Below, in pieces: positions 4,736 through 23,492 of a stretch of 23,492 nucleotides of DNA; positions within the stretch are counted from its first letter, which is position 1, and every line of letters starts with the position of its first letter. The notes beneath the pieces were generated by a model. It was not told the origin of the DNA. It searched no databases and saw nothing but the letters and a program-made list of their open reading frames with translations. The DNA is from a virus. The position numbers were made by a program, and so were the translations under genes. The DNA lies in the IMG/VR virus record IMGVR_UViG_3300030090_003333, positions 1 through 23,492 of that record. One strand, 5' to 3'.

Positions 4736-5155
4736 TTATATATATTTAAAAGTTTCGTAAGCTGGCGCTGTTTTATCTATTGTCCAGCTTAATTTATTGT
4801 GAATATTTTCCATGTGTACATTTCCGCAAACAGTAAATATAAACTTTATACCTTCTTGTTTTGCTTGTCTTTCTATATTAAGTATTAATTGTTCTATAAT
4901 ACTTCTCCTATCTTTTTGTCTGTAGTTAGGATTTGAAACTACATAAGTTAAGTAACCAACTGGCGCATGTTTGTCAACAAACAAAAAACCAGCAGCTACC
5001 ATTTCTTTTTTTTTGCCAATTATATAGCAATAATTATCGTGTGGCAAGTACTCTCTTTCTATAGCGCCTTTATCACCCCACCACCAGTCCCACCACTGTG
5101 AAACTAAATTGTAATCCGTATTATTAAAACTACGGAATATTATTTCGTTGTTCAT
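4736..5155 (-). CDS. GNAT-like N-acetyltransferase in the tail module
   Basis: This small 139-aa protein has the strand-helix pattern of the GNAT fold: an N-terminal strand and helix containing a tryptophan cluster (WWDWWW, residues 21-26), central strands (about 42-60), strand 4 (YLTYVVSNP, about 68-76) leading into a Q/R-rich acetyl-CoA pyrophosphate loop (RQKDRR, 79-84) and helix 3, and a C-terminal motif-B-like part (FTVCGNVHMENIHNKL, about 107-122). The loop lacks the usual Gly-x-Gly/Ala, so acetyl-CoA binding is plausible but unproven. The substrate is unknown. The gene stop overlaps no neighbour but is only 2 bases from the next ATG, so it is translated with the ejection-type protein. 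Similar small acetyltransferase genes among structural genes are, from recall, frequent in marine phages. Confidence 0.7.
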   Translation of the reverse strand: MNNEIIFRSFNNTDYNLVSQWWDWWWGDKGAIEREYLPHDNYCYIIGKKKEMVAAGFLFVDKHAPVGYLTYVVSNPNYRQKDRRSIIEQLILNIERQAKQEGIKFIFTVCGNVHMENIHNKLSWTIDKTAPAYETFKYI

Positions 5156-6879: not shown

Positions 6880-8577
6880 TTACTTGCTGCTTTCGTTTAT
6901 TTGTGAACTAACAGAAAATAATTCTGCTTTACCTGTTGCACTGTTTCCAAATGTTACTTCTGCATAATAACCTGTAACACCTGATTTGTTTATATTAGAG
7001 TTCTTTTTAAATAATACAAAATCACCTTCTTCAAATATTGCTGCAGGTGGATTTGTACCAGTATCATGCCCTACTGTAATTGTGTTTTTACCAATTGACT
7101 TTATTTCTAAACTATATTCTTCTAAATCATCACTATCAATAACGTTACCATTACCAATATTAGTAGCTGTAACATAATGAATAGTGTCGTTTAAAGATAA
7201 AGACGTGTTAATATCTTCGTCAAATGTTATAACAACTTCACCTAAAACTGTAACAGCACCTAAACTATCGGTTTCTGTTAGAACAGTATCTTGCGATATA
7301 ACTCCTATACCTTGTATTTGATTTGAACTATAATCTATTATAGCGTTATCACCTTTTATATAATTAAACCACTTACCTTCTTTTTCTATAAACTCATTTG
7401 TTTTACCAGAGTTTTTATCTGTAGTTATATTACCTAAATACCAACCAGACTTGTCTTCTAAATTGTAATAGCTATCATCTTCGGTTCTTAAATCAACTCC
7501 AGATTCTGTCGTTGCCGTTATCCTAGCTTGAGTTCCTTCATAACTTATAGTTTCAAAGTTTTTAATAGTACTAGGCGCATCGTTAAACAATAAAGTTATT
7601 GCCGACTCATTAGGCACGCCATAAAACTCATTTCTACTTACAGTATTGTCGTGATGTAAATATATTTCACCTTTATTAAAACTATAATAATCACCAGAAC
7701 AACTTACACTACTTTCTGGCACGTATGTTTTAAAACTTGTCCAACCTCTAACGTTTTCTTGAAAACTAACAGTTGTGCTGTTTAAAGTTAAATTGTATTG
7801 ATCTTTCTTTTTATCATAGCCACCAATTAATAAACCAGATGTTCTTAAATTATCTCTAAAATAATCTTTCATACCATGCAAAGATATTGGGCTCAAACCA
7901 TCTCTTGATAATCTTAAAACAACACCTCTTTGTTTGTCTGTAAAATAAGATCTATATGCTTCTGAAACAAAAGACTCTGGATTTTTTGATATACCGTAAT
8001 CACCTACATAAGGTATTGCTTGGCCTAAAACTCTTTCGTTAGATAACAACTGTATGTTACCATCAGCATTAAACAAAGCGTCTTTATTAGCTAGTACTTT
8101 TAATACTTTATCTTCACAAAGAACTGTTAAATCAGAGTCTCTAGTGTGAAGTTTCTGTATGCTACCATAAGTAGGATTTAAATCTTTTGTTATTTTTTCT
8201 GCTAAATTAAATTGATTTGTTTCGTTAAAACTACTAGACTTATTATATATACCAGAATATATTAAACTGTTTTTTCTTTCTTCTTTTTTATAATCATCAA
8301 ACTCTGCAGAAACTCTAACACCAGGCGCTAAAAGCATTTTATTAAAATCATCTCTAACTCTTGTAGACTCTACGCCGTTACCAAAACTATAACAATTATG
8401 CCAATTTAAATCATAAGCAAAATTATGAGTTTTTGTTTTTAATGTAAAACTATCTGTTTGACCGTTACCGTCTAATGTAGGAATTGTATCTATTTCTATA
8501 TATATAACATCGCCATTTGGTTTTGTTATTTTAAATAGATCACCTACGTTTATTATTTTATTTATTGAGTATGACAT
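6880..8577 (-). CDS. C-terminal part of a stabilization/nozzle-type tail protein, as a separate 565-aa ORF
   Basis: From recall, the stretch FGNGVESTRVRDDFNKM (about residues 66-82) and the later LNPTYGSIQKLHTRDSDL and EDKVLKVLANKDALFNADG match the C-terminal half of long P22 gp10-like 'stabilization' proteins of uncultured marine phages. Repeated strands such as VVLRLSRDGLSPISLHGM fit a beta-propeller. The C-terminal segment GYYAEVTFGNSATGKAELF also looks like the usual end of that family. Here it is its own ORF, starting at 8577 one base after the TAA of the 1626-aa gene. Together the two probably build the ring below the portal that forms the tail nozzle. The start is the only sensible ATG given the TAA-T-ATG junction. 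Confidence 0.8.
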   Translation of the reverse strand: MSYSINKIINVGDLFKITKPNGDVIYIEIDTIPTLDGNGQTDSFTLKTKTHNFAYDLNWHNCYSFGNGVESTRVRDDFNKMLLAPGVRVSAEFDDYKKEERKNSLIYSGIYNKSSSFNETNQFNLAEKITKDLNPTYGSIQKLHTRDSDLTVLCEDKVLKVLANKDALFNADGNIQLLSNERVLGQAIPYVGDYGISKNPESFVSEAYRSYFTDKQRGVVLRLSRDGLSPISLHGMKDYFRDNLRTSGLLIGGYDKKKDQYNLTLNSTTVSFQENVRGWTSFKTYVPESSVSCSGDYYSFNKGEIYLHHDNTVSRNEFYGVPNESAITLLFNDAPSTIKNFETISYEGTQARITATTESGVDLRTEDDSYYNLEDKSGWYLGNITTDKNSGKTNEFIEKEGKWFNYIKGDNAIIDYSSNQIQGIGVISQDTVLTETDSLGAVTVLGEVVITFDEDINTSLSLNDTIHYVTATNIGNGNVIDSDDLEEYSLEIKSIGKNTITVGHDTGTNPPAAIFEEGDFVLFKKNSNINKSGVTGYYAEVTFGNSATGKAELFSVSSQINESSK

Positions 8578-8578
8578 A

Positions 8579-11500
8579 TTAAATAAATCTATTTTCTATA
8601 TGAGTTGGTTGAGAAGTAGTAGGTTGTACTGTAACTTTCTCTGATAAAGTTATATCACCTGCATCTGTTACGCCTGTAATAGTAACACCTTCTGGTATAC
8701 CATCACTTTCTATGTGCTCTATTTTAGAGCCTACTGGTATTATTTCACTTAGTTTATCTTCTGATATTTTGTAATAATTACTAGCTTCATAGTAAATATC
8801 TAAATTTTTATCTTTTTTAGACTCTGTTTCCCAAACAGCTGGATTTGCTGATAATTCACTTTGCTCTTCATCAACAACAGTAACAAACTGCATTGTGTAA
8901 CCAAGTGGCGCAACACCTGTTTTAGTTAATGCTTCACCACCTTTTCTAAACCAATTTAAATTTTTAGCAGAGTTAGGACACATACCGTTCATATAATATT
9001 GTTTAAAAACTAAATTATCTGAAGTAGTTATATCTCCAATTTTACCATTACCAGTTCCTGAGTCTAAGTCTTCATCATCACCGTCATAAGCTCTAAATTT
9101 AATAGTAAATTTATTTGTAGAGTTGTCAAAAGAAATATCACTAACTATAGCTTTTTTAGTTATTTCACGAGTAGTACTACCACCATCTTCATAAGCATGT
9201 AACACCATACCTTCTTGCACGCTCATTGTATCTCCAGCGGCTGTAGTACCACTTATACTATCAAGTTCTATTTTTGCTAAACCACTACTAGCATCTTTTG
9301 TACCAACAGGGTTTGTAGAAGCCGGTACTGTTAAAGTTATACCATCTGGTATTGGGCTTCCTGGTGTTCCAATAGGATTCCAAGCAATAGGCTTGTCAAG
9401 AGATAATCTATAATTTACAGAAAAATTATAAGCATTTAAAAAAGAAGGTGCTCTATAATGAACTGCAGTATCGCTAGGATTACCAGGACTACCAGGACTA
9501 CCGTTTAAACTACCACTAGAATCATATTCATTTAAATAATATGTATTACCATTATTATTACCGTTTACAATATTTTTATTTCCTAAAAATTGATTTACGT
9601 TTTGAGCTAAAGGCGCGTTGTAAGTGCTTGTACCACTATCATATTGTGCATCTTCACATAAATTATCATAGTTTACTAAATAGCTTATTGTAACATCAGT
9701 TATTGTGTATATAGTAGACGCTGGATCTTCTTTAAATCTAAACTGACTACCAGCGGCTAACTTTTTTATAAAAGCACCTTGTGTTGGTGCAAACGTAGAG
9801 TGATTTATTAAATCAAAAAAACTAGAGTCTGTATATGGATAACCTGAGCTAGCCCAACCAGTACCTTCTTCTGGTTCTATACCTCCAAAGCCAATATTTA
9901 TTGCAGAAGTAGTACTATAACCAGCATAAGCATCTCTTTCAACCCAACTACCGTGCACAGCTGAAGAGTTTGTTATAGGATATGCAGGACTAACTACAAG
10001 CCCATTAGTTTGTACTGTACCATAAGGATAGTTACGAGAGTTTTTCATACCATTAAAATACCACACATCTTCAAACTTTGCATTGTCTCTATCATCTTCT
10101 AAATCTAGTTTTAACACTCTATCATTAGCAGCTTTATCTGGATCTAATTCTGTATTTATACCTCTATACCAAGCCTTTAAACCTAAAATAGTATTCCATT
10201 TTTTTCTAGTATAATTAGGATCGCTGCTTCCTACATTAGCTGGGTCATAATCAAAATCACCTAAACTTTGAATAATAGACTTAGCTGACGATAAATATTG
10301 ATATAAAGTAGCATTACCATAGCTAGGTGGACTAGTTGCGCTTTCACCTAATGTAAAACTACCTACAGCATTGTAAGTACCACCTGCGCCTCCAGTATTC
10401 CAAGCATCTTCAGTAGAGCCTACTCCAAAAAACTGACCGGCTGCACCAGAACCATGATGATCAGGTGAGTTGTATTTATCATTATCTTTAGACTTAAAAT
10501 AATATAAAGTTTTGTCTGTTGCAGAAGAAGTTGTATACTCTATGTCTTCATTTTCTATACTAGAAGAAATAAATTGATTATAATGTTCATCTCTAAATAT
10601 TTTTACAAAAAATCTACCTTCAAATTTAGGTGAGTTTTCTATTCTCTCTTTAAATATTTTTAACGAAGCGCCGTCATTAACTTCAGTAGGCGTACCAGAG
10701 TTTGACGGGTCATCATTAAACTGAGCCATATCAGCGCCAAAAACACCTTCTATTGTAAATATAAATTTAGCAGGGCTACTAGTAGTTTTTTCAATATTAA
10801 AAACTTTATATCTATTAGAAGATAATGGAGCGTCAACAATTTGTATAAAATATTCATCACCTACAGGTCTATTGTTAAACAAAGTTTCTAGCTCAGACAA
10901 ACCGCTACTATTATATCTACTAAATAAAACGCTAAAGCTACTACCGTTTAAAGCTGGTATTTCACAACCTTGTGATGAGTCAAATAATAAAGCAGTAGTA
11001 TTATTATGAAACTTTTGACTTATAAGCATTTTATTTGCTTTTATAAACTCAGGAGCTTCATTTTTTATATCTATTACTTTGTATTTATTTTTAGTAGCTA
11101 AATCAACAACGTTATTGTCAATACCTTTTTTTAACACTAAATAATCATCTATTTCAACTTTATTTCTATCGCTAGATGCAAATGATAACCAAACATTACC
11201 GTCTTCAGCATCATACCAACGATCCATTGCTAAGTTAAAATATTCACCACCAATATCTTTAACATAAAATTTAAAATAATCAGCGTTTACAGGGTGACCG
11301 TCTGAATTTATTTGCACTTGCAAAGTGTTTATTTCAGGAGCAGATAATAACTGTACTTCGTTTGTAGCATCTGAATTTGTTAACACAGGTGTTTGTCTAC
11401 CATACTCATCACTATAAACTACACCTACTTGATATTTTCTAGAAGATTTTATCGACGGTATACCTAAACTGCTATTGTTTTCTTCGTTATTTATTTTAGT

Positions 11501-13459
11501 ATTTAAAAGTATGTTAAAATCTTCGTTTTGCGATGTAGTAGAGTTGTAATATTCTAAATCATAATTTTGCTGATAGTTACCATAAACAACTCTATTGCCT
11601 AAAACTTCTTGAGCTTTAGCTGTAATTGGAACATTATCATAAACTCTTAATAATTGATTTTCAGGTAATATACCTTTTGCAGTATCGTTTGTAATATTAT
11701 AATCAAAAAGTCCAAGTGAAGTTTTTATTGTATCAACTAAATATACAGCTGTAGAATCATCTTCTTTATATAAAATATCTATAGCAACAACATCATCTGG
11801 CATTTCATCGTTAAGATTTTTTAATGTTACATCTTTAACTGTATTTTCCATACCAATATTATAACCTTCTACTGGATGATAAGCAAAGCTACCAGGAGAA
11901 AACACCGCGTTACTAAAAGGTGAAAAGCAAGAATATTCGTTGTCAGCATATTTATATCTGTAAGCAAATCTAGCAAATTTTAAATCAAACAAACTTTCAA
12001 CATCTTCGTATAAATCTATGGCATAACCTAATGTGGTTTCTGTAGCTGGCACAGCAGGTGGTGTTCCTGCTATAGAAGTTACTTTAATACGTACTTTAGC
12101 AATCTGCACATCTATTCTAGTTAACTCTACATTTTTTACAGCGCCATTAAATAAATTACCACTATTATCAGTTGCAGCTTCAAAATAAATGGCGTTAGGA
12201 TAATATTGGCTTAATGTGTTATTAAAAGATTGTTCTGGTATAGTAAAATCATAAACACCAGCGTCTGACGCAGTTAGATCATTTAAGTCTATTTCGTAAT
12301 AATCCGAACTTCCACTTGCATTATTATGAAGTCTAATTAAAACTCTACCTTGTAAACTACTATTATACTCAGCTAATTCAAACGAAAGTCTGTATTTATA
12401 AGAATCTAACAATAAATTTCCAGCACCACTAGAATAAAAATAGTGTACTAGTTTTTTACCACTACTACCAGTAGTAGAATCAAAATAATAATCATTAGCT
12501 GTGCCTGAAAAAGTCCAGCTTGGAGTTTGAGTAATAGTGTTTTCTATAGGAAAAGGTAATATAGTATTTGCAAACTCATTGTTATTCCAATCAGTTATGT
12601 AACCTTTTAAATCGTAATCTTGTAATGGAAGAGAAGGAGGAGTATTGTCTAAATTAAAAGCTTTTAATATAACATCAGTACCTGCTTGCCAACTTAAAGT
12701 AAAATCATTACTAAAGTTTTCATCAGTTTCTATTATTGTATCAAAAGTATCACCTATTTTTATTGTTGAAAAGTCGTGTATTCTACCTCTAGAAGAGTTT
12801 ATAAAAGTATGTGGATTAGCTGCTATATTAGCTATGTTTATAAAACCTATATTAGCTAAAGTAGGATCTCTAAAATAATTATACTGTATTGTTGGAGCGT
12901 TAATAGGTGACTTTTTAATAACAGTTATATTTTCTTCTTTAGCATCTACATCTGTACCGCTGTAATCTGTTATTTTAGTTGCAGAAGTACCTGAAACATC
13001 AGTACCATCTATTGATCTTTGTATGTTTATTTTTTTAGGTTCATTAGCACCATCTGTAAAAAATAATAAATCATTAATTATATTTATACCTGTTATTTTG
13101 TTTTCACTAAACTTTAAAACAGTATTGTCTGTATCTACAAAAACAGGTATTATACTTGTTTTGTCGTACTGTAATATATAACTTTTTGGACTACTATCAG
13201 TAGTATCAAAAACAAACCAATATATTTTATTATTTTTTTCATCAGCAATACTACCTATACAAACACACTCATCATTAAGATAACTAATATTAGCAACTAT
13301 TTTATTACCAAGTATATTTTGTACAGAGCCAACATCAGTCTCGTCTGAAGTAGAAACTTGAATATTTATAGCATCTCTATACTCACCGTTTTGAACAAGT
13401 CTTTCGTCAAGATCTTTGTTCATTTTACCGGTGGTAAAATTATGTTTAATCTCCGGCAT
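8579..13459 (-). CDS. Giant stabilization/nozzle-type tail protein (1626 aa), N-terminal partner
   Basis: The N-terminus (KHNFTTGKMNKDLDERLV, residues 5-22, followed by NGEYRDAINIQVS) is a signature I recall from phage 'stabilization' proteins in marine and crAss-like phages, related in role to P22 gp10 and T7 gp12. Strand-rich repeats (for example CIGSIADEKNNKIYWFVFD, about residues 67-85, and ITGINIINDLLFFTDGANEPKKI, about 122-144) fit beta-propeller blades. Residues about 312-455 look like an inserted jelly-roll domain. Further on are LFDLKFARFAYRYKYADNEYS and DDVVAIDILYKEDDS, again family-like. A Gly/Pro/Ser-rich loop (GSPGSPGNPSD) lies in the C-terminal third. No protease or glycosidase motif is evident. 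The gene is coupled to both neighbours by TAA-T-ATG. The family call comes from recognised motifs; the role is inferred from the family and context. Confidence 0.85.
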   Translation of the reverse strand: MPEIKHNFTTGKMNKDLDERLVQNGEYRDAINIQVSTSDETDVGSVQNILGNKIVANISYLNDECVCIGSIADEKNNKIYWFVFDTTDSSPKSYILQYDKTSIIPVFVDTDNTVLKFSENKITGINIINDLLFFTDGANEPKKINIQRSIDGTDVSGTSATKITDYSGTDVDAKEENITVIKKSPINAPTIQYNYFRDPTLANIGFINIANIAANPHTFINSSRGRIHDFSTIKIGDTFDTIIETDENFSNDFTLSWQAGTDVILKAFNLDNTPPSLPLQDYDLKGYITDWNNNEFANTILPFPIENTITQTPSWTFSGTANDYYFDSTTGSSGKKLVHYFYSSGAGNLLLDSYKYRLSFELAEYNSSLQGRVLIRLHNNASGSSDYYEIDLNDLTASDAGVYDFTIPEQSFNNTLSQYYPNAIYFEAATDNSGNLFNGAVKNVELTRIDVQIAKVRIKVTSIAGTPPAVPATETTLGYAIDLYEDVESLFDLKFARFAYRYKYADNEYSCFSPFSNAVFSPGSFAYHPVEGYNIGMENTVKDVTLKNLNDEMPDDVVAIDILYKEDDSTAVYLVDTIKTSLGLFDYNITNDTAKGILPENQLLRVYDNVPITAKAQEVLGNRVVYGNYQQNYDLEYYNSTTSQNEDFNILLNTKINNEENNSSLGIPSIKSSRKYQVGVVYSDEYGRQTPVLTNSDATNEVQLLSAPEINTLQVQINSDGHPVNADYFKFYVKDIGGEYFNLAMDRWYDAEDGNVWLSFASSDRNKVEIDDYLVLKKGIDNNVVDLATKNKYKVIDIKNEAPEFIKANKMLISQKFHNNTTALLFDSSQGCEIPALNGSSFSVLFSRYNSSGLSELETLFNNRPVGDEYFIQIVDAPLSSNRYKVFNIEKTTSSPAKFIFTIEGVFGADMAQFNDDPSNSGTPTEVNDGASLKIFKERIENSPKFEGRFFVKIFRDEHYNQFISSSIENEDIEYTTSSATDKTLYYFKSKDNDKYNSPDHHGSGAAGQFFGVGSTEDAWNTGGAGGTYNAVGSFTLGESATSPPSYGNATLYQYLSSAKSIIQSLGDFDYDPANVGSSDPNYTRKKWNTILGLKAWYRGINTELDPDKAANDRVLKLDLEDDRDNAKFEDVWYFNGMKNSRNYPYGTVQTNGLVVSPAYPITNSSAVHGSWVERDAYAGYSTTSAINIGFGGIEPEEGTGWASSGYPYTDSSFFDLINHSTFAPTQGAFIKKLAAGSQFRFKEDPASTIYTITDVTISYLVNYDNLCEDAQYDSGTSTYNAPLAQNVNQFLGNKNIVNGNNNGNTYYLNEYDSSGSLNGSPGSPGNPSDTAVHYRAPSFLNAYNFSVNYRLSLDKPIAWNPIGTPGSPIPDGITLTVPASTNPVGTKDASSGLAKIELDSISGTTAAGDTMSVQEGMVLHAYEDGGSTTREITKKAIVSDISFDNSTNKFTIKFRAYDGDDEDLDSGTGNGKIGDITTSDNLVFKQYYMNGMCPNSAKNLNWFRKGGEALTKTGVAPLGYTMQFVTVVDEEQSELSANPAVWETESKKDKNLDIYYEASNYYKISEDKLSEIIPVGSKIEHIESDGIPEGVTITGVTDAGDITLSEKVTVQPTTSQPTHIENRFI
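12095..12526 (-). other. Predicted jelly-roll (carbohydrate-binding-like) insertion in the 1626-aa tail protein
   Basis: Residues about 312-455 show the strand pattern of CBM4/9-like or galactose-binding-like modules: TPSWTFSGTANDYYF, then YKYRLSFELAEYNSSLQGRV, then a strand near VYDFTIPE, and a closing NAIYFEAATD...FNGAVKNVELTRI. Such modules bind sugars or serve as structural add-ons. The boundary and fold are inferred from pattern only. Confidence 0.5.
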
Positions 13460-13460
13460 A

Positions 13461-15104
13461 TTATTTTATTATCTTAGATTTGTTTCTAAACTCTTGAATT
13501 ATTTGTTCTAACTTAATGTTAGATAATCTTAACTTTGCGTTTCTTTTTGTAGCTCTTTTTTCTTGTTTATATCTTCTTATAGCATACTCAGGTACACCTG
13601 ATCTACCAGACATAATATCACACAGCATGTGCTTGTACATTGCCTCTTCTGCAAATTTATGAACTTGCATTTCAGCATCAGTACCTAAACCATCACTTAT
13701 ATAGTCTAACACTATTGTCTTACCAGAAACATTAGAACTAAAGTTTATATATCCTTGTAAGTTATCTACATAGAAGCTACCGTTTACTTGAGCGTGTGAA
13801 GGTTCTAAACCATATCTTTGACCTTTATTTAAATTATGAAATCTTGGATCGTCATAATCATAGTCTATTACAACGTTTTCGTTAGGTGTATGTGATTTAT
13901 AATTTTCCCAAGTTGTAGAGTCAGTATCTGTAATATTTTTAGGCATTAACCTTTCTGTTGGCTCACCACTTTTACAAGACACACTATTTACTTTATTAAC
14001 AAACTCCCATTGAGTTGGAACTGTACCGTTGTTTGTTGGTTGAGTTTGTGTTGCTATTACACCATCGCCTTTTGTTTCTGAAGTAAACACTTCAACAAGA
14101 CTGTTTATTATAAAATAAACTTCATCATGAGCAGAAACATCTACGTCTAACTCTTGAACACCATCACTTGTAAATTCAATAAAACCAAGATCAGGATCGT
14201 TTAAGTTTTTACTTAAATAATTAGGATTATTATTTATTTGTTGAGCTGTTCCTTTTGTTTTAGTATTATTAACACCAGGTGAAGTTTGTATACCTACAAT
14301 AATTTTTCCATTAGGAACAGAGCTACTAAAACTCGTAGCGTTACCAGCACCAGTAGTATTACTAGTTAAGTCTTCCGTGAAAAGAGCTACGTCTGCGCTT
14401 ATAGTTAAAGTAGTTAATTGACTAACATCAACTCTTTGCCAACAAGATAATACTCTACCGTCATAATCAAGACTATTAACCACGTTTATAGGTTGTGAAA
14501 CATGAGTAAATTGTAGTTGATTACTAGTAGCAGCACCTGATCTTATTTTAAAACCACCACCAAAACCTAAAATTCCATTACCATTTGTATCTGGTCCCGG
14601 TGCAGAAGTTTGACCATCTCTTTGTACTTTACTAAAAGTTGGTCTTTTCCACCTTGGGTGTAATCTACTTTGAGCACTGTCAAAATCACCACCTATTAAT
14701 AGCTCTACATCATCAGAAAAAACATAATCACCATCATCATTTTGTAGTATTGCAAATGGGTTTGAAGTATGTTGAGTGTGATATAGCGGGTGCTTAATAC
14801 CAGACTCATCAGTAAAGTACACGCCTGTATAGTTAACGTAATCTTGTGGCAATATCATTTTTAAACTTGGTGGTAAAGTTATTTCTTGAGACTTTATAGA
14901 TTTAAAAGTGTCAAATGATAATTCTTGTATAGCTCTCATAGCGTGGAAAGCAATGTCAGCTCTTCTAATTCTAGGTATTATTTTGTCTTGTCCAACATAA
15001 GATATTTGAAACTGATTTATTATAGTATCTAATGATACAAACTGATAATTACCATAATCATTGCCTTCGTAATAAGCTTGGTTTGTTTCGTTTATTAATG
15101 CCAT
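13461..15104 (-). CDS. Head-tail ring/adaptor protein with a large insertion (547 aa)
   Basis: Residues 15-100 (NDYGNYQFVSLDTIINQF, then IRRADIAFHAMRAIQELSFD and LPPSLKMILPQDYVNYTGV) and residues about 398-547 (TWENYKSHTP, GQRYGLEPSHAQVNGSFYVD, SGKTIVLDYISDGLG, VHKFAEEAMYKHM) match, from recall, a ring/adaptor-type structural protein common in marine podovirus-like and crAss-like phages. The N-terminal helices resemble connector proteins that dock under the portal. Between the two halves, residues about 136-380 form a separate beta-rich domain that shorter homologs, as I remember them, lack. The C-terminus is basic and coiled (KRATKRNAKLRLSNIKLEQI). The gene sits 4 bases downstream of the other ring gene and is coupled to the giant tail gene. 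The adaptor role is inferred from family and position. Confidence 0.82.
   Translation of the reverse strand: MALINETNQAYYEGNDYGNYQFVSLDTIINQFQISYVGQDKIIPRIRRADIAFHAMRAIQELSFDTFKSIKSQEITLPPSLKMILPQDYVNYTGVYFTDESGIKHPLYHTQHTSNPFAILQNDDGDYVFSDDVELLIGGDFDSAQSRLHPRWKRPTFSKVQRDGQTSAPGPDTNGNGILGFGGGFKIRSGAATSNQLQFTHVSQPINVVNSLDYDGRVLSCWQRVDVSQLTTLTISADVALFTEDLTSNTTGAGNATSFSSSVPNGKIIVGIQTSPGVNNTKTKGTAQQINNNPNYLSKNLNDPDLGFIEFTSDGVQELDVDVSAHDEVYFIINSLVEVFTSETKGDGVIATQTQPTNNGTVPTQWEFVNKVNSVSCKSGEPTERLMPKNITDTDSTTWENYKSHTPNENVVIDYDYDDPRFHNLNKGQRYGLEPSHAQVNGSFYVDNLQGYINFSSNVSGKTIVLDYISDGLGTDAEMQVHKFAEEAMYKHMLCDIMSGRSGVPEYAIRRYKQEKRATKRNAKLRLSNIKLEQIIQEFRNKSKIIK
13965..14699 (-). other. Predicted jelly-roll insertion in the 547-aa ring protein
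   Basis: Residues about 136-380 begin with LLIGGDFDSAQ, a typical opening of sugar-binding jelly-roll modules. They continue with ILGFGGGFKIRSG, RVLSCWQRVDVSQLTTLTISADVAL, GKIIVGIQTSPG and a closing QELDVDVSAHDEVYFIINSLVEVF. The flanking ring-protein sequence resumes at about residue 395. The function (glycan binding, decoration or ring stabilisation) is unknown. Confidence 0.5.
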
Positions 15105-15108
15105 TTAT

Positions 15109-15843
15109 TTATTGTTTTTCTTGTTGTACAACAGCGCTTTGTGACTGTGCTGCAAATTGTGATAGTTGAGGTTTTTCTATAGCAACACCAGCCATAAATA
15201 ATATTCTGTAAACTAACTCAGACTCATCGGAAGGATGTAGTTCAAAGTTAATAGAATTACTTGAATCGTAAAAAGGTTTTTGATTAATTATTTTGTATGC
15301 CCAGTCAGGTTTTTTAGGAAACCTCGTGTATTTAATTCTAACTTGATCTCTTAGTGGGTCTATATTAGGAAAAGGATAAACTTGTATAGTATCATTTTGT
15401 TTTCTTACATATACAGGTCTTTTTTTTGATTGAACAGCTAGAGTAGTGTTATTGTATATACTCATATCTTTTTGAGTACTTTGCTCTGCAACAACTGAAA
15501 GTGTATTTTCTAAATACTTAACGTTTACTTGAGTTAAACGGTGTATGTCATCAATTGTAGCTGAAATATTTATATTGCCAAATTCATCTAAAACTGTAAC
15601 AGCTTTATCTACTTCTGAAAAAAAACTTATTTTATCTTCTAAATAATCTACCATATCAGAATATTCTGAAGTATTACCAGGTACTCTTTTAAATTGATTT
15701 AAATCATAAAAATACTGTTCAAATATTTCTTTTTGTGCTTGATCAGCAAATAAGTTAAATTCTTGAGGTGTTATATAACCTCTTTTTTCTTTATTAGCTA
15801 TTGCTAATACTTTTTGATATACTGTGTTTATATTTACTGCCAT
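15109..15843 (-). CDS. Putative head-tail connector/ring protein (244 aa)
   Basis: The N-terminus (NINTVYQKVLAIANKEKRGYI and TPQEFNLFADQAQKEIFEQY, residues 4-45) is a helical pattern I recall from a conserved structural protein of uncultured marine phages, placed just before the larger ring protein. A charged linker follows (about 60-75), then a beta-rich part (about 80-215) with KKRPVYVRKQNDTIQVYPFP and VRIKYTRFPKKPDW, and a last helix (SELVYRILFMAGVAIEKPQL) with a Gln/Ser-rich tail. The helix-strand-helix plan and position suit an adaptor ring between portal and tail nozzle, as P22 gp4 or T7 gp11 do, but no direct sequence likeness to those is visible. The ATG at 15843 follows an A-rich leader 19 bases below a strong hairpin. 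Confidence 0.8.
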   Translation of the reverse strand: MAVNINTVYQKVLAIANKEKRGYITPQEFNLFADQAQKEIFEQYFYDLNQFKRVPGNTSEYSDMVDYLEDKISFFSEVDKAVTVLDEFGNINISATIDDIHRLTQVNVKYLENTLSVVAEQSTQKDMSIYNNTTLAVQSKKRPVYVRKQNDTIQVYPFPNIDPLRDQVRIKYTRFPKKPDWAYKIINQKPFYDSSNSINFELHPSDESELVYRILFMAGVAIEKPQLSQFAAQSQSAVVQQEKQ

Positions 15844-16798: not shown

Positions 16799-18304
16799 TT
16801 ACTTCATTAACATAAAGTTGTTAGCACCTTGTACTACTAAACATCTTTCTGATAAGTAATGAACTTGCATTGCATCAAGCGCAGATGTAGCAGCTCCAAC
16901 AGAACCAGTAACCCAAGTTTTCATTCTTCGGTTGTCAGTTGCTGAAGATCTAAATCTTACGTGTAAGAAAGGTCTCTTTAAGTTCTTTCCTAAAGCTTGA
17001 TCATATACAGAAGATACACCAGCAGGTATAATAACACCTCTGATTGCAGCAGAACCTGCAACACGGTTTATTTCACCTCTTGTTGCAAAATCATTTAAGT
17101 ATCTAAAGTCAGACTTATAGAAGTCATAAGAACCTCTTCTGAAACCAGAGAAACCTAAGTTTAACGCCATATCTTCAGATTGATTAAATACTCCGTAAGA
17201 AGTACCACCAGCTCCGTAAGAGTTCATAGAAGCTAACATATCATCAAAAGCAAGAGACGTAGCTCTGTTTACGAATAACATATTTTCTTCAATAGCACCT
17301 TGCTTATCGAACTCAGCTAAGATCGCATCGAACTCAGCTAAATCAGTAGCAGCGTTAACACCAGTAACACCTGAAGTTAAATTACCTCTATCTTCGATAG
17401 CTGCAAATAAACCTTCAGTACCAGCACCGTTAAGCCCAGCATCAGCAGTACCTCTAATTTGCTTGTTAGCAAAACCAATAACAGATGCAGCAGCTGTTTT
17501 TTCAGCTTCAAGCATTGTCATTTCTAAATAATCAGTAAATCTAGCTCTAGTATCACCTTCAGCTTTTAAGTACCATAAGTAACCATTTTGCCCTTCTTCA
17601 CCAGAAATTTCAACCCAACCAACTTGAGAAGCATCAGATCCTGAAACTTCGTAGTAATCTTTCATGATTATTGGTTTGTTGTTGAATTGCTTGAAAGATG
17701 GCTCAATAGCTTCTCTTCTATCAGCACTGTGAGTACCAGTAATATCAGAGTAAGATTGACCTTTACCATACTCAGAACCTATAACTAATAATATAGATCC
17801 GCTAGCAGTTGTAGCGTGATCAGTTAAATCAGCTTTGTCATAAGGCTCAACCGAAACAACGTTTGAGTCTGGAGTTTCTACTACTAAACATTTAGTAACG
17901 ATACCTGCACTTGCTATAAGTACAACATCGTTTACTCTAACACCGTGAGTTCTAGAGCTAGTAGAACCAACACCAGTATCACCGTCAATGTCTTTTGTAA
18001 TTGTAAACGTACCGTTAACATCACCAGCTACAGTGACTGTACCTTGGTACGATAAATGTAAACGACCTTGCTCAGACCAAATAACTTGATCAGCAGTCAT
18101 CGCTTCTTCTGCACCAACTTGAGATAAGAAACCAGAAATAGTTCTGTTACCAAATACTTCAGCTTCTTTTTCCATTAAGTCAGGCAGGTATTGTTGAGCC
18201 CAACCTTTAGTGTCAGCGCTCGTAAAATCGATGTAATTTGATGCTAGTGTTTGTTGCTTTGGAGCAGGTACACTATTCAAATTACCTCCTGCAGTAATTG
18301 CCAT
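16799..18304 (-). CDS. Major capsid protein (HK97-fold expected)
   Basis: This 501-aa protein lies directly after portal and scaffold-like genes, the usual place of the coat protein. The N-terminus (SNYIDFTSADTKGWAQQYLP, about residues 23-42, then DLMEKEAEVFGNRTISGFL) matches, from recall, major capsid proteins of uncultured marine podovirus-like phages. A small beta-barrel-like segment (about 88-180) is inserted after IWSEQGRLHLSYQG. Later parts include a helix (DYLEMTMLEAEKTAAASVIG) and an A-domain-like C-terminus (GVIIPAGVSSVYDQALGKNLKRPFLHVRFR, ending FMLMK). These fit the HK97 fold (N-arm, E-loop, P-domain, A-domain), though the fold is inferred. No protease cleavage site can be read with confidence. 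Base composition is slightly less AT-rich and codon choice looks more even, as in a highly expressed gene. A terminator follows it. Confidence 0.88.
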   Translation of the reverse strand: MAITAGGNLNSVPAPKQQTLASNYIDFTSADTKGWAQQYLPDLMEKEAEVFGNRTISGFLSQVGAEEAMTADQVIWSEQGRLHLSYQGTVTVAGDVNGTFTITKDIDGDTGVGSTSSRTHGVRVNDVVLIASAGIVTKCLVVETPDSNVVSVEPYDKADLTDHATTASGSILLVIGSEYGKGQSYSDITGTHSADRREAIEPSFKQFNNKPIIMKDYYEVSGSDASQVGWVEISGEEGQNGYLWYLKAEGDTRARFTDYLEMTMLEAEKTAAASVIGFANKQIRGTADAGLNGAGTEGLFAAIEDRGNLTSGVTGVNAATDLAEFDAILAEFDKQGAIEENMLFVNRATSLAFDDMLASMNSYGAGGTSYGVFNQSEDMALNLGFSGFRRGSYDFYKSDFRYLNDFATRGEINRVAGSAAIRGVIIPAGVSSVYDQALGKNLKRPFLHVRFRSSATDNRRMKTWVTGSVGAATSALDAMQVHYLSERCLVVQGANNFMLMK

Positions 18305-19569: not shown

Positions 19570-21978
19570 CTATAAATTTCTTAGGTCAAAGCCTTCTCCA
19601 ATATTATTACTCATTGACTCAAAGTTTTTAGGTGTTTTACCACCTTTTCTTTGATCTATAAGTTCAGACTGTTGAGACGCTTGTATTCTAGTTCTTTCGT
19701 CTTTACGATCTTCTTTTGTTTTTTCTCTATTAGCTAATTGTTGAGTCTCAACGCCTTTTAACTGCATGTTATATTGAAACTCTACTTGCATTAATTGTTT
19801 TTTAATTTCAGCTTCTTGCTGTAATTTTTGCAACTCTAACTGAGCTTCTATTTGTGCCAACTCTAACTTGCTTTGAGTTAAAGCTTGGTTTTTTTGCATT
19901 TCAACTTGAGCAGCTTGTTGAGAAGCTTGTGCGTTAGACTGTGATTGAGCTTGAATATTTTCTAATTGTAACCTTCTATCTTTTAATTCTTTTTTACCTC
20001 TTCTTAGTTTTAAAAGCTTGTTAGCAAGTTTTAAATTTTTAGTTTCTCTAATATCTATAGCATCTTCAAGCTCTATACTATTTTTTTGTAAAGCTACTTG
20101 TATGTTGTTTTCAAGCATTTGTTTTTCTTCTTCATCTGGCTGTAATTGTATAAATATACCAAAGTCATACAAGTATAAATCTTCTATTTCTTTTAATGTA
20201 GCCACATTATGACTTCCTATAGCGTGGATAAAAGCATCTTTTGTTGGTGAATACTCTAATATGTCAGATATTCTTAATGATAATTGTTCTGCTATTTCTG
20301 CTGTTAAAAATAAACCTGCTTGCAAAACGTGTCTTGTTGCTGTATTACTATTTGCAGCTGCTAATTTTTGTACACCAACTAAAGCGTTTTTATCTGGCAT
20401 ACTACCGTCTCTAGCTTCATTAAGACCTGTAGTATCTCTAATCATTTGCATATAATAATTGTAATTAGCTATTAAAGCTTGTATTTTATTACCACCATTA
20501 CCGCTTGTTATTTCTTGTATAGGTACTTTACCAGCATTTATATCTCCGTCTTGCGTATATGATCTACCAATAATACTACCTGTTTGAAAGAACATATTTA
20601 AAGCTTCTTGCGGGTTGTAATTAGTACCATTACCTAAATCAACCTCTGCTAAACCATCAACATCTAAATAAACACCATCTGGCACCATACGGTTTAAAAC
20701 TTGTTGTAGCTTTAAATGTGTTAATTGTATCATATCAGCAAAACCAGTTATACGTCTAACTAAACTTTCTATTCTGCCTTTATACATACGAGGTGCAACT
20801 ATACTATAGTTCATCATAACTTTAGTATAATCACTTTTAGGTCTCATCATGTTTTTAGATAACTCCCATTTTAAAAGTCTATTAGTACCAAGTATTAAAG
20901 CGCCTTCATACAAAGTCTCTATGCTTCTATGTAGTTTTGTAAAGCTACCTTCTTTGTTTTCTGGTGGATTAAAATTATCATCTTTTTCTATAGCTTTTTC
21001 TGCACCAGTACCAGTTTCTTTTACTTTGTAAACTTCGTTCATATATGTTTTATAGTTAAAATATAAAACTTGAACTTTGTTATTGTCTTCTTCTTTATAA
21101 CCAGCTACGCCTTGTAAATAATTTTTTTGATATGTTTTTTTATTTTTAACTATATCTTCTAAATCTTCTTGCTCTAAAAACGGAAACTCTTTTACAAGCT
21201 CGTTTACAGGTATCATTTTAACTTCACCTACATAATATATATCATCAAAATAAGGTGATTCAGTGTATGAATAAACTAAATCAGCTGGATCAACATATTT
21301 TATAACAGCTCCTTCAGAAGTATTAAAATCAGTTTTAGCAGCACCAATACCTAATACAGTTAAGTCGTAATAAAAACGTTTTTGAATTAAATCAAATTTA
21401 TTTCCTTCAAACAATAAGTTTAAAGCTTGTTCTTCAGCTAGTTCTATAGGTTGTTTATAATCAAGCTGCATGTGAAGCTCAAGTTCTTCTTTACTCTCAG
21501 GTAGTTCTACGTCTGTTTGTCTAGTGTTTACGTCAAACTGTAATAAGTTAGCGTCATTAATATCTTTTAACTCCATGTCAGTTAAAACTGACTCCATATA
21601 GTTTGTTCTTTCTTTGACACCAAAAGGATCTATTGCATAAGCTTTTATATCGTAAGTTCTTTGAGTCATACCGTTTACAAGTATATCTACAAACTTAGGT
21701 ATAATAGGTACAGGTGTCCAGTCTAAATTTAAATAAGATAAATCACCATTAATTGATAATTCGTTTTTATATTTTTGTACTGACTGCTCTCCTCTAGCAT
21801 ATAATCTTAAACCATGATAATTATTTCTATTGCTAGTATATCTTGATTGATTATTGTCATCGTAAAACCACTCTTGCTCAATAGCTTTTGCTACTTTTAA
21901 ACCGTAATCATAGCTTAACTTTTCAGCATCGCTTACTACTTGACTTGGAAAATAACTTTTTATAACAGACTCTGCCAT
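19570..21978 (-). CDS. Portal protein (802 aa)
   Basis: The gene lies between terminase and scaffold and is of the length seen in podovirus and crAss-like portals. The N-terminal part (LYARGEQSVQKYKNELSING, residues 59-78; TPVPIIPKFVDILVNGM, 88-104) begins the clip and wing region. Central segments DLTVLGIGAAKTDF (205-218), VMMNYSIVAPRMYKG and EARDGSMPDKNALVGVQKLA are family-like, followed by a helix that would be the stem and crown part. Residues about 655-775 are a long Gln/Ala/Glu-rich coiled coil, and the protein ends FDLRNL. Twelve copies would form the ring through which DNA is packaged and ejected and to which terminase and ring proteins bind. Two bases separate it from the terminase stop. 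Position, length and motifs agree; the ring number is family knowledge. Confidence 0.88.
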   Translation of the reverse strand: MAESVIKSYFPSQVVSDAEKLSYDYGLKVAKAIEQEWFYDDNNQSRYTSNRNNYHGLRLYARGEQSVQKYKNELSINGDLSYLNLDWTPVPIIPKFVDILVNGMTQRTYDIKAYAIDPFGVKERTNYMESVLTDMELKDINDANLLQFDVNTRQTDVELPESKEELELHMQLDYKQPIELAEEQALNLLFEGNKFDLIQKRFYYDLTVLGIGAAKTDFNTSEGAVIKYVDPADLVYSYTESPYFDDIYYVGEVKMIPVNELVKEFPFLEQEDLEDIVKNKKTYQKNYLQGVAGYKEEDNNKVQVLYFNYKTYMNEVYKVKETGTGAEKAIEKDDNFNPPENKEGSFTKLHRSIETLYEGALILGTNRLLKWELSKNMMRPKSDYTKVMMNYSIVAPRMYKGRIESLVRRITGFADMIQLTHLKLQQVLNRMVPDGVYLDVDGLAEVDLGNGTNYNPQEALNMFFQTGSIIGRSYTQDGDINAGKVPIQEITSGNGGNKIQALIANYNYYMQMIRDTTGLNEARDGSMPDKNALVGVQKLAAANSNTATRHVLQAGLFLTAEIAEQLSLRISDILEYSPTKDAFIHAIGSHNVATLKEIEDLYLYDFGIFIQLQPDEEEKQMLENNIQVALQKNSIELEDAIDIRETKNLKLANKLLKLRRGKKELKDRRLQLENIQAQSQSNAQASQQAAQVEMQKNQALTQSKLELAQIEAQLELQKLQQEAEIKKQLMQVEFQYNMQLKGVETQQLANREKTKEDRKDERTRIQASQQSELIDQRKGGKTPKNFESMSNNIGEGFDLRNL

Positions 21979-21980
21979 AT

Positions 21981-23492
21981 TTATTTTTTAATTAATTTAG
22001 ATGTATTACCTTTGTTAGAATACTTAGCAATACTTATATTTAGTTTAGGTTTTTCTATTTTAGCGTTTGGTCTATATAAATGCCTATTACAAGCCATTAT
22101 AGCTAAACCAGAGCTTATAGAAGCATCATGCTTTGTTCTTTTGTTTATATCAAACTTAGCCCAATCATTTAACAACTCGTTAAAATAACAACTGCCAAAC
22201 TGACCTTGACTATCCATACCAACATGGTTTTGAATATACATTTCAATAGCAGCAGCATGTGCTTGTTTTATATCTTCACTTGTGTTTGGTATACCACCTA
22301 TTTCTTTTTCTGCAGTTGATAGTTTATTCCATATTTTATCTGGCCTGTTCATACTATAACCTCTATAACCTCTACGTCTTAAATAGTATAATAATCTAGG
22401 TTTGTTATTTTCTGCTAGTAACGGCATGCCATAAAATACTAATGCCATTAACACGTCTTCAAAAAACATCTCTGCAGTTTGTGGTCTAGCTAAATACTCT
22501 AAAAAAAACTGATTTGGTGGAGCGTCTTCCATGCTGAACTTAGTTAAGCCATGCAAAGCGCCTTTCGATCCTTTACCGTCTACAGTACCGCTAATATCGT
22601 AGCTGTCGCAGCCAAAAGCGCCCAAATGATCGTTGCCAGGGTATTTGCTTCCATTTTTTATTATTATTCTATTTTGTAAATTGCTAGGTGGTACCCAGCT
22701 TATTTTAAATCTACCTTTTGGATCAGGATAAAATATTACTTGCGTATCTTTTATACCGTTAACCCATTGAAAACTACCTACTGTAACGCCTAATGTTCTA
22801 GACATTTCTTCGTTGTAGTCTATTTGTTCGTATATTTTAACTAAGTTAAATATACTATTTTTTGTTTCATCTCTAAACGCATGTTCAGTTGTTCTTGGAA
22901 ACTGTCTGTAAAACTCGTTTAAAGCATCTTGATCACCTTTTAATCCTTCAGCTTCATTCTGCCAGTGATCTATTATACCGTAATCTATTAATTCTCCGTC
23001 AGGTCCGTATACATCATAATCTGGATTATTAAAGACTGGATCTCCGTATTCATCAATAAATCCTTCGTAGTTCCACTCCATTGGGATAAAGAGAGAATAA
23101 AGGCCAGACTTTGTTTGTCCATTACGATTTCGTCTCGATACATCTGAATCATTGTATAGTTTTTTAAAGTTGTCTCCACCTTTGTCAAGGGCGTTGGAAG
23201 TTGAGCCCATCATACACTTACCTACTATTCTACTACCAAGACGTAAACATGTTTTTGTTACACGCCAGTTATTTAATATGTTGTCAGGCCTTTCCCATTT
23301 ACCACTTTCATCGTGAACTAACAGTGTAAGTTTTTCTCCATCATAACTGTTATCGCCTGTATTTTTCCAATCAATAGTAGTATCAAGTCCAACCAAGTCT
23401 TCCTGCTTTTCATTAGCAGTAATTTTTTTACGAGTAAACTTACTCGCAGGTACACGGTAAGCAAGCTCAGACTTAGGTCTATCCATACCATC
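21981..23492 (-). CDS. terL: Terminase large subunit, 5' end beyond the window (C-terminal ~503 aa)
   Basis: The frame is open through the right edge (two more codons, Asp-Gly, precede the first in-window Met at 23486), so the Walker A region is missing from view. Counting from that Met, residues 53-60 (LTLLVHDE) are the Walker B strand with catalytic Glu, and 89-98 (GKCMMGSTSN) the ATPase coupling motif. The nuclease domain follows: GCDSYD (292-297, first metal Asp), a probable Glu near FFED (341-344) and KHDASISSG (452-460, last Asp), an RNase H-like set. RQFPRTTEHAF (194-204) is also terminase-like. The enzyme pumps DNA into the procapsid through the portal and cuts the concatemer. No small subunit is seen; it would lie outside the window. 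Stop is TAA, 2 bases from the portal ATG. Confidence 0.9.
   Translation of the reverse strand, partial: DGMDRPKSELAYRVPASKFTRKKITANEKQEDLVGLDTTIDWKNTGDNSYDGEKLTLLVHDESGKWERPDNILNNWRVTKTCLRLGSRIVGKCMMGSTSNALDKGGDNFKKLYNDSDVSRRNRNGQTKSGLYSLFIPMEWNYEGFIDEYGDPVFNNPDYDVYGPDGELIDYGIIDHWQNEAEGLKGDQDALNEFYRQFPRTTEHAFRDETKNSIFNLVKIYEQIDYNEEMSRTLGVTVGSFQWVNGIKDTQVIFYPDPKGRFKISWVPPSNLQNRIIIKNGSKYPGNDHLGAFGCDSYDISGTVDGKGSKGALHGLTKFSMEDAPPNQFFLEYLARPQTAEMFFEDVLMALVFYGMPLLAENNKPRLLYYLRRRGYRGYSMNRPDKIWNKLSTAEKEIGGIPNTSEDIKQAHAAAIEMYIQNHVGMDSQGQFGSCYFNELLNDWAKFDINKRTKHDASISSGLAIMACNRHLYRPNAKIEKPKLNISIAKYSNKGNTSKLIKK

Follow-up and report, generated by a model that had tools for sequence, protein, structure and literature searches.

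The window analysed here, a virus record of 23,492 bases, carries its long open reading frames on the minus strand as a crAss-like morphogenesis block (Table 1). The phrog_13704 protein of this block is read as the major capsid protein, and the ring protein gene is followed by the muzzle in the same order as gp43 and gp44 of crAss001. The muzzle of the window occupies two adjacent open reading frames in different frames (1626 and 565 aa); in a related contig (G001) the muzzle is one protein of about 2,750 aa, and in crAss001 one of 1371 aa. The division in the window is either a natural split or an assembly error. A GNAT acetyltransferase gene (139 aa, positions 4736-5155) also lies within the virion gene block. 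Because cultured relatives of the ring protein, found by tblastn, infect Flavobacterium, Cellulophaga, and Maribacter, the hosts of the window virus are likely marine Bacteroidota.

Table 1. Genes of the morphogenesis block and subdivisions of the ring protein gene in the window.
Feature	Position	Strand	Description
Terminase large subunit	21981-23492	-	Part of crAss-like morphogenesis block
Portal	19570-21978	-	Part of crAss-like morphogenesis block
405-aa protein		-	Between portal and phrog_13704 protein
Virion structural protein	16799-18304	-	phrog_13704
276-aa protein		-	Between phrog_13704 protein and phrog_14543 ring protein
Second probable ring protein	15109-15843	-	phrog_14543; constant length; served as control
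Whole ring protein gene, 547 aa	13461-15104	-	phrog_13977; R1-like core
N-terminal core, residues 1-116	14757-15104	-	Helices and first ring-fold strands (predicted structure); conserved in all homologs
Slot, residues 117-395	13920-14756	-	Bounded by conserved TSNP and STTW
Type A insert, residues about 130-382	13959-14717	-	CBM-like beta-sandwich (predicted structure and fold matches)
C-terminal core, residues 396-547 and stop	13461-13919	-	Rest of beta domain and C-terminal helices (predicted structure); kept in homologs with and without insert
Muzzle, two open reading frames	8579-13459 and 6880-8577	-	phrog_14478 and crAss_MUZ_C; directly downstream of ring gene

The ring protein matches phrog_13977 (273 aa; virion structural protein, head and packaging) over residues 7-137 and a second stretch (E value of 7.7e-44), as do relatives carrying the type B and type C inserts described below. 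Its AlphaFold2 model, computed from an 83-row alignment of natural relatives, has a mean pLDDT of 70.6, the ring core being less confident than the insert. Residues 21-547 of the predicted protein align to ring protein 1 (gp43) of crAss001 (7qog_B) with a Z score of 10.8 over 179 residues and an rmsd of 9.4, a high value which means that the two halves of the core sit differently in the model. Since this alignment spans residues 21-547, the window protein is, as modeled, a ring protein whose core is split by a CBM-like domain. The predicted core resembles the R1 ring fold, and we do not file it as a CrAss_Ring_1 member: the Pfam profile of that family (PF24228, threshold of 27 bits) had no match in the window protein or in the record. 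As the hhalign comparisons of empty-slot ring proteins with single crAss001 ring proteins were likewise not significant, the ring identity rests on fold, PHROG assignment, and gene order. Sequence searches of the PDB with the ring protein, its profile, and the insert profile found nothing. The crAss001 gp43 protein (PMC10172136) is therefore like the window core in its predicted fold and in its position directly upstream of the muzzle, but it has 236 aa and no such inserted domain. One scan of IMG/VR placed at least 574 homologs in the ring family. Aquimarina longa has a distant homolog (L142:3001-3822) on a scaffold of 837 kb, which may contain an integrated crAss-like relative.

Nearly all of the length difference among homologs falls between P116 (in TSNP) and S396 (in STTW), and many homologs are gapped here when aligned. 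Homologs from cultured phages cover 44-52% of the ring protein by tblastn in two pieces, its N- and C-terminal ends, which they carry joined; the two ends thus form one continuous conserved core, as had been proposed from the sequence alone. That shorter homologs lack the insert, as the sequence-only reading had stated, was borne out by the homolog of Maribacter phage Panino (290 aa) and by insert-lacking IMG/VR contigs, whose ring proteins have 301-303 aa; complete ring proteins among the IMG/VR relatives range from 301 to 585 aa. We measured slot lengths from profile boundaries on 237 non-redundant ring genes, and the distribution was bimodal: 96 slots were empty (14-37 aa), 140 were filled (112-318 aa), none fell between 37 and 112 aa, and the boundaries overlapped in the one remaining gene. 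With such a gap in the distribution, the difference is not one of a loop that grew gradually. The neighboring phrog_14543 ring protein of the same contigs served as a control, and its open reading frames stay within 229-281 aa (5th-95th percentile), so the length effect belongs to the phrog_13977 ring gene. The insertion in the ring protein is confirmed. Two contigs show further arrangements: one (L123:3001-7078) has three tandem ring genes, each with its own diverged type A insert, and an empty-slot ring protein in another (L048:3752-4843) bears some 65 additional residues of a different kind close to its N-terminus, which may mark a second site of insertion.

The insert of the window, which belongs to the family that we call type A, is predicted to be a beta-sandwich of jelly-roll type extending from about residue 130 to residue 382, its strands (residues 184-379) mostly having pLDDT values of 80-95. 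The earlier placement of a separate jelly-roll module at positions 13965-14699 (residues 136-380) was thus right to within a few residues, and in the model this sandwich stands apart from the ring fold and is not integral to it. Foldseek with the ring model returned 12 PDB chains at E < 0.001 (down to 1.2e-5), including an endo-arabinanase, a porphyran-binding module, CBM61, and CBM16. On realignment, CBM61 reached a Z score of 12.1, CBM16 11.9, an alginate-binding module 11.3, CBM4-2 11.2, and a hyaluronan-binding module 10.8, and phage tail proteins gave 10.0-11.2 with their C-terminal domains; according to the tool's own note, models without a clear relative typically have a best Z of 7-8. 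The likeness to sugar-binding modules noticed in the sequence therefore holds at the level of fold (CBM61, CBM16, and CBM4; Z 11-12). The insert shares the beta-sandwich with CBM16, CBM61, and CBM4 (2zew, 2xom, and 2y64) over about 130-150 residues, and differs from them in its low identity (about 8-15%) and longer loops. Type A inserts matched no CBM family profile at E values up to 1, and aromatic residues are scarce in the window insert (3 W and 3 Y); one of them, the conserved W152, probably has a structural role. Domains of Cry toxins and Eph receptors that belong to this fold class were also among the matches, so the fold alone is no proof of sugar binding.

Within type A, the residues that determine the fold are kept (F141 in 94%, W152 in 96%, Q223 in 93%, and G271 in 99% of the alignment). 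The type A insert profile held no conserved stretch usable for a collection scan, and a tblastn search for a relative of the insert in 50,697 phage records gave one 38-residue match with an E value of 0.5, which is chance. In the fetched loci, no copies of the type A insert occurred outside ring genes.

An all-against-all comparison divided the slot contents into three main sequence families, with 89 relatives of type A, 36 of type C, and 11 of type B; a further three genes resemble type C, and another resembles type B. In sequence, types A and B are weakly linked (hhalign P of 0.002), and no link was found between A and C or between B and C. Type B matches the profile of a hyaluronate lyase binding module (E value of 0.0025) and, weakly, CBM_4_9. 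Type C, a barrel that was folded separately, reached a pLDDT of 93.7, and half of it is similar to the Arthrobacter phage Bridgette decoration protein (Z 10.1) and also to tail-protein domains. Type B domains occur in the adjoining muzzle gene as well (L026:5366-9358, L019:5408-7636, and L020:5408-6257; E values down to 1e-17), and modules may therefore move between neighboring virion genes.

More important than the earlier reading, and not contained in it, is the exchange of unlike modules at the slot. When slot content is mapped on a tree built from the core only, it changes about 26 times. This is a quick tree with many weak branches, so the safe numbers are those forced by well-supported branches: at least 5 changes for type A, 6 for type C, and 5 for type B. 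Closely related pairs show the exchange directly. The cores of L176 (empty) and L179 (filled) are 93% identical; at the DNA level the two match as far as base 2384 of each, and the match starts again 45 bases further on in one and 303 bases further on in the other, which is a clean replacement of DNA at the slot. L071 and L148, with cores 87% identical, carry inserts of types A and C, respectively. Among type A pairs whose cores are at least 90% identical, the inserts range from 26% to 100% identity. Synonymous differences per site in L003 and L004 amount to 0.38 in the core and 0.09 in the insert, a contrast which points to recombination and suggests that the insert moved recently between lineages. 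The window ring gene is a mosaic in the same way: it is 94% identical to L002 in the core and 40% in the insert (92-94% and 39-40% across L002 and L003), and 65% and 63% identical, respectively, to L006. No long direct repeat involving the insert, as a template or variable repeat of a diversity-generating retroelement, was found in the window, which is a fragment.

These results bear on whether the slot merely tolerates insertions, with illegitimate recombination adding and removing domains at little consequence for fitness. In favor of this, the fillers have unlike folds and are often missing, and dN/dS was higher in the insert (0.09-0.85) than in the core (0.02-0.16) in almost every close pair that allowed both to be computed. 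However, these values stay below 1, the fold-determining residues of type A are kept, and no complete gene has a slot of intermediate length; we regard passive tolerance as very improbable. A structural role shared by the slot modules is conceivable from the predicted fold of type C. The modules could be decorations or clamps that stabilize the neck by packing on adjacent subunits of the ring, on the vertex of the capsid, or on the portal region, with different lineages using different beta-folds for one job. The likeness of type C to a decoration protein fits this role, a clamp could plausibly sit on a ring adjoining the portal, and many relatives manage with an empty slot. The interface with a conserved partner would, however, not be expected to change far faster than the core, as the inserts do between the window and L002/L003, and this explanation seems unlikely to us.

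We therefore consider the insert to be a surface module of the neck ring that can be exchanged and that most probably acts as an accessory binder of glycans, and we hold this reading with moderate confidence. The insertion, its edges, the predicted fold, the absence in relatives, the replacement by other modules, and the faster change than in the core were computed directly, and glycan binding is suggested by the fold, the fast change, and two parallels. The first is the evolved Dit of lactococcal skunaviruses, also a tail ring with inserted carbohydrate-binding domains, which aid adsorption to exopolysaccharide-bearing cells (PMC10688798); it is a different protein, at the siphophage tail tip, with other hosts. 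The window protein does not have the Dit core of siphophage tail tips, its core being a podovirus-type ring. The second is TTPA of Klebsiella phage KP32, a T7 gp11/P22 gp4-type adaptor of the same general ring class as the window protein, whose extra beta domain has been called lectin-like and proposed to bind exopolysaccharide (PMC5440376); no slot exchange is described for it, and enzymatic activity is claimed for KP32 but not for the window protein. The carbohydrate-binding accessories of R4C are a further parallel (PMC10276861). Against glycan binding stand the lack of a CBM profile match for type A, the scarcity of aromatic residues, the fold shared with Cry toxin and Eph receptor domains, and the decoration-like type C.

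In the mechanism that we propose, one loop of the core beta-domain of a neck or tail-barrel ring subunit serves as a fixed slot for exchangeable domains, and in the window virus this slot holds the CBM-like beta-sandwich. About twelve copies of the insert would stand out from the ring on its outer face and would bind a host polysaccharide, probably of marine Bacteroidota. The sideways exposure and the role in attachment or decoration suggested by the sequence-only reading are plausible. Binding would be weak, multivalent, and of low affinity, adding to the attachment by dedicated tail fibers, and would shift with changing surface glycans of the host. The type A relative G001 (L289:7397-12473) has fibre-like genes of its own, encoding a 936-aa protein, a 446-aa protein with an S74 chaperone domain, and a 311-aa protein with a laminin-G-like lectin domain; a binder on the ring would accordingly be an accessory adhesin.

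Such separate fiber-like genes would also suit a slot module that is a docking site for fibers or appendages, varies as fibers are exchanged, and takes the place of the tail-hub collar; in crAss001 this collar is seated on R1 and R2, which carry the fiber-holding hub proteins (PMC10172136). A match to the hub family is absent in the window and in seven relatives, but R3/4 went undetected there too, which makes the hub search uninformative. Moreover, fibers would have to dock elsewhere in relatives whose slot is empty, and the fold is that of small-ligand binding modules. We consider docking improbable.

Insertion of a CBM is already established for the Dit tail ring, and a lectin-like extra domain has been reported in one T7-type adaptor. 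In the open-access literature, we found no report of a CBM insertion or an exchange slot in crAss-type ring proteins; new within the literature searched are the crAss-type ring location, the slot with its two states, and a single site at which unlike folds replace one another. Host recognition by uncultured marine crAss-like viruses is mostly unknown. CBM-like domains present in many copies and exchanged at a fixed neck slot would give these viruses a second, genetically simple recognition surface, and the natural pairs with near-identical cores and different or absent inserts make this idea directly testable. The type of insert could also be used as a metagenome marker linking such viruses to host polysaccharides. 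More broadly, and tentatively, as a proposition whose chances we put a little short of even, the neck ring of this large group of uncultured marine crAss-like viruses might carry a dedicated exchange slot, one loop on a conserved scaffold where recombination between lineages swaps whole domains for adhesion or decoration whose folds are unrelated. If so, the virion neck would be a fast-evolving host-recognition surface beside the fibers and the tail tip, and it may help the virus to grip the variable sugar coats of its hosts.
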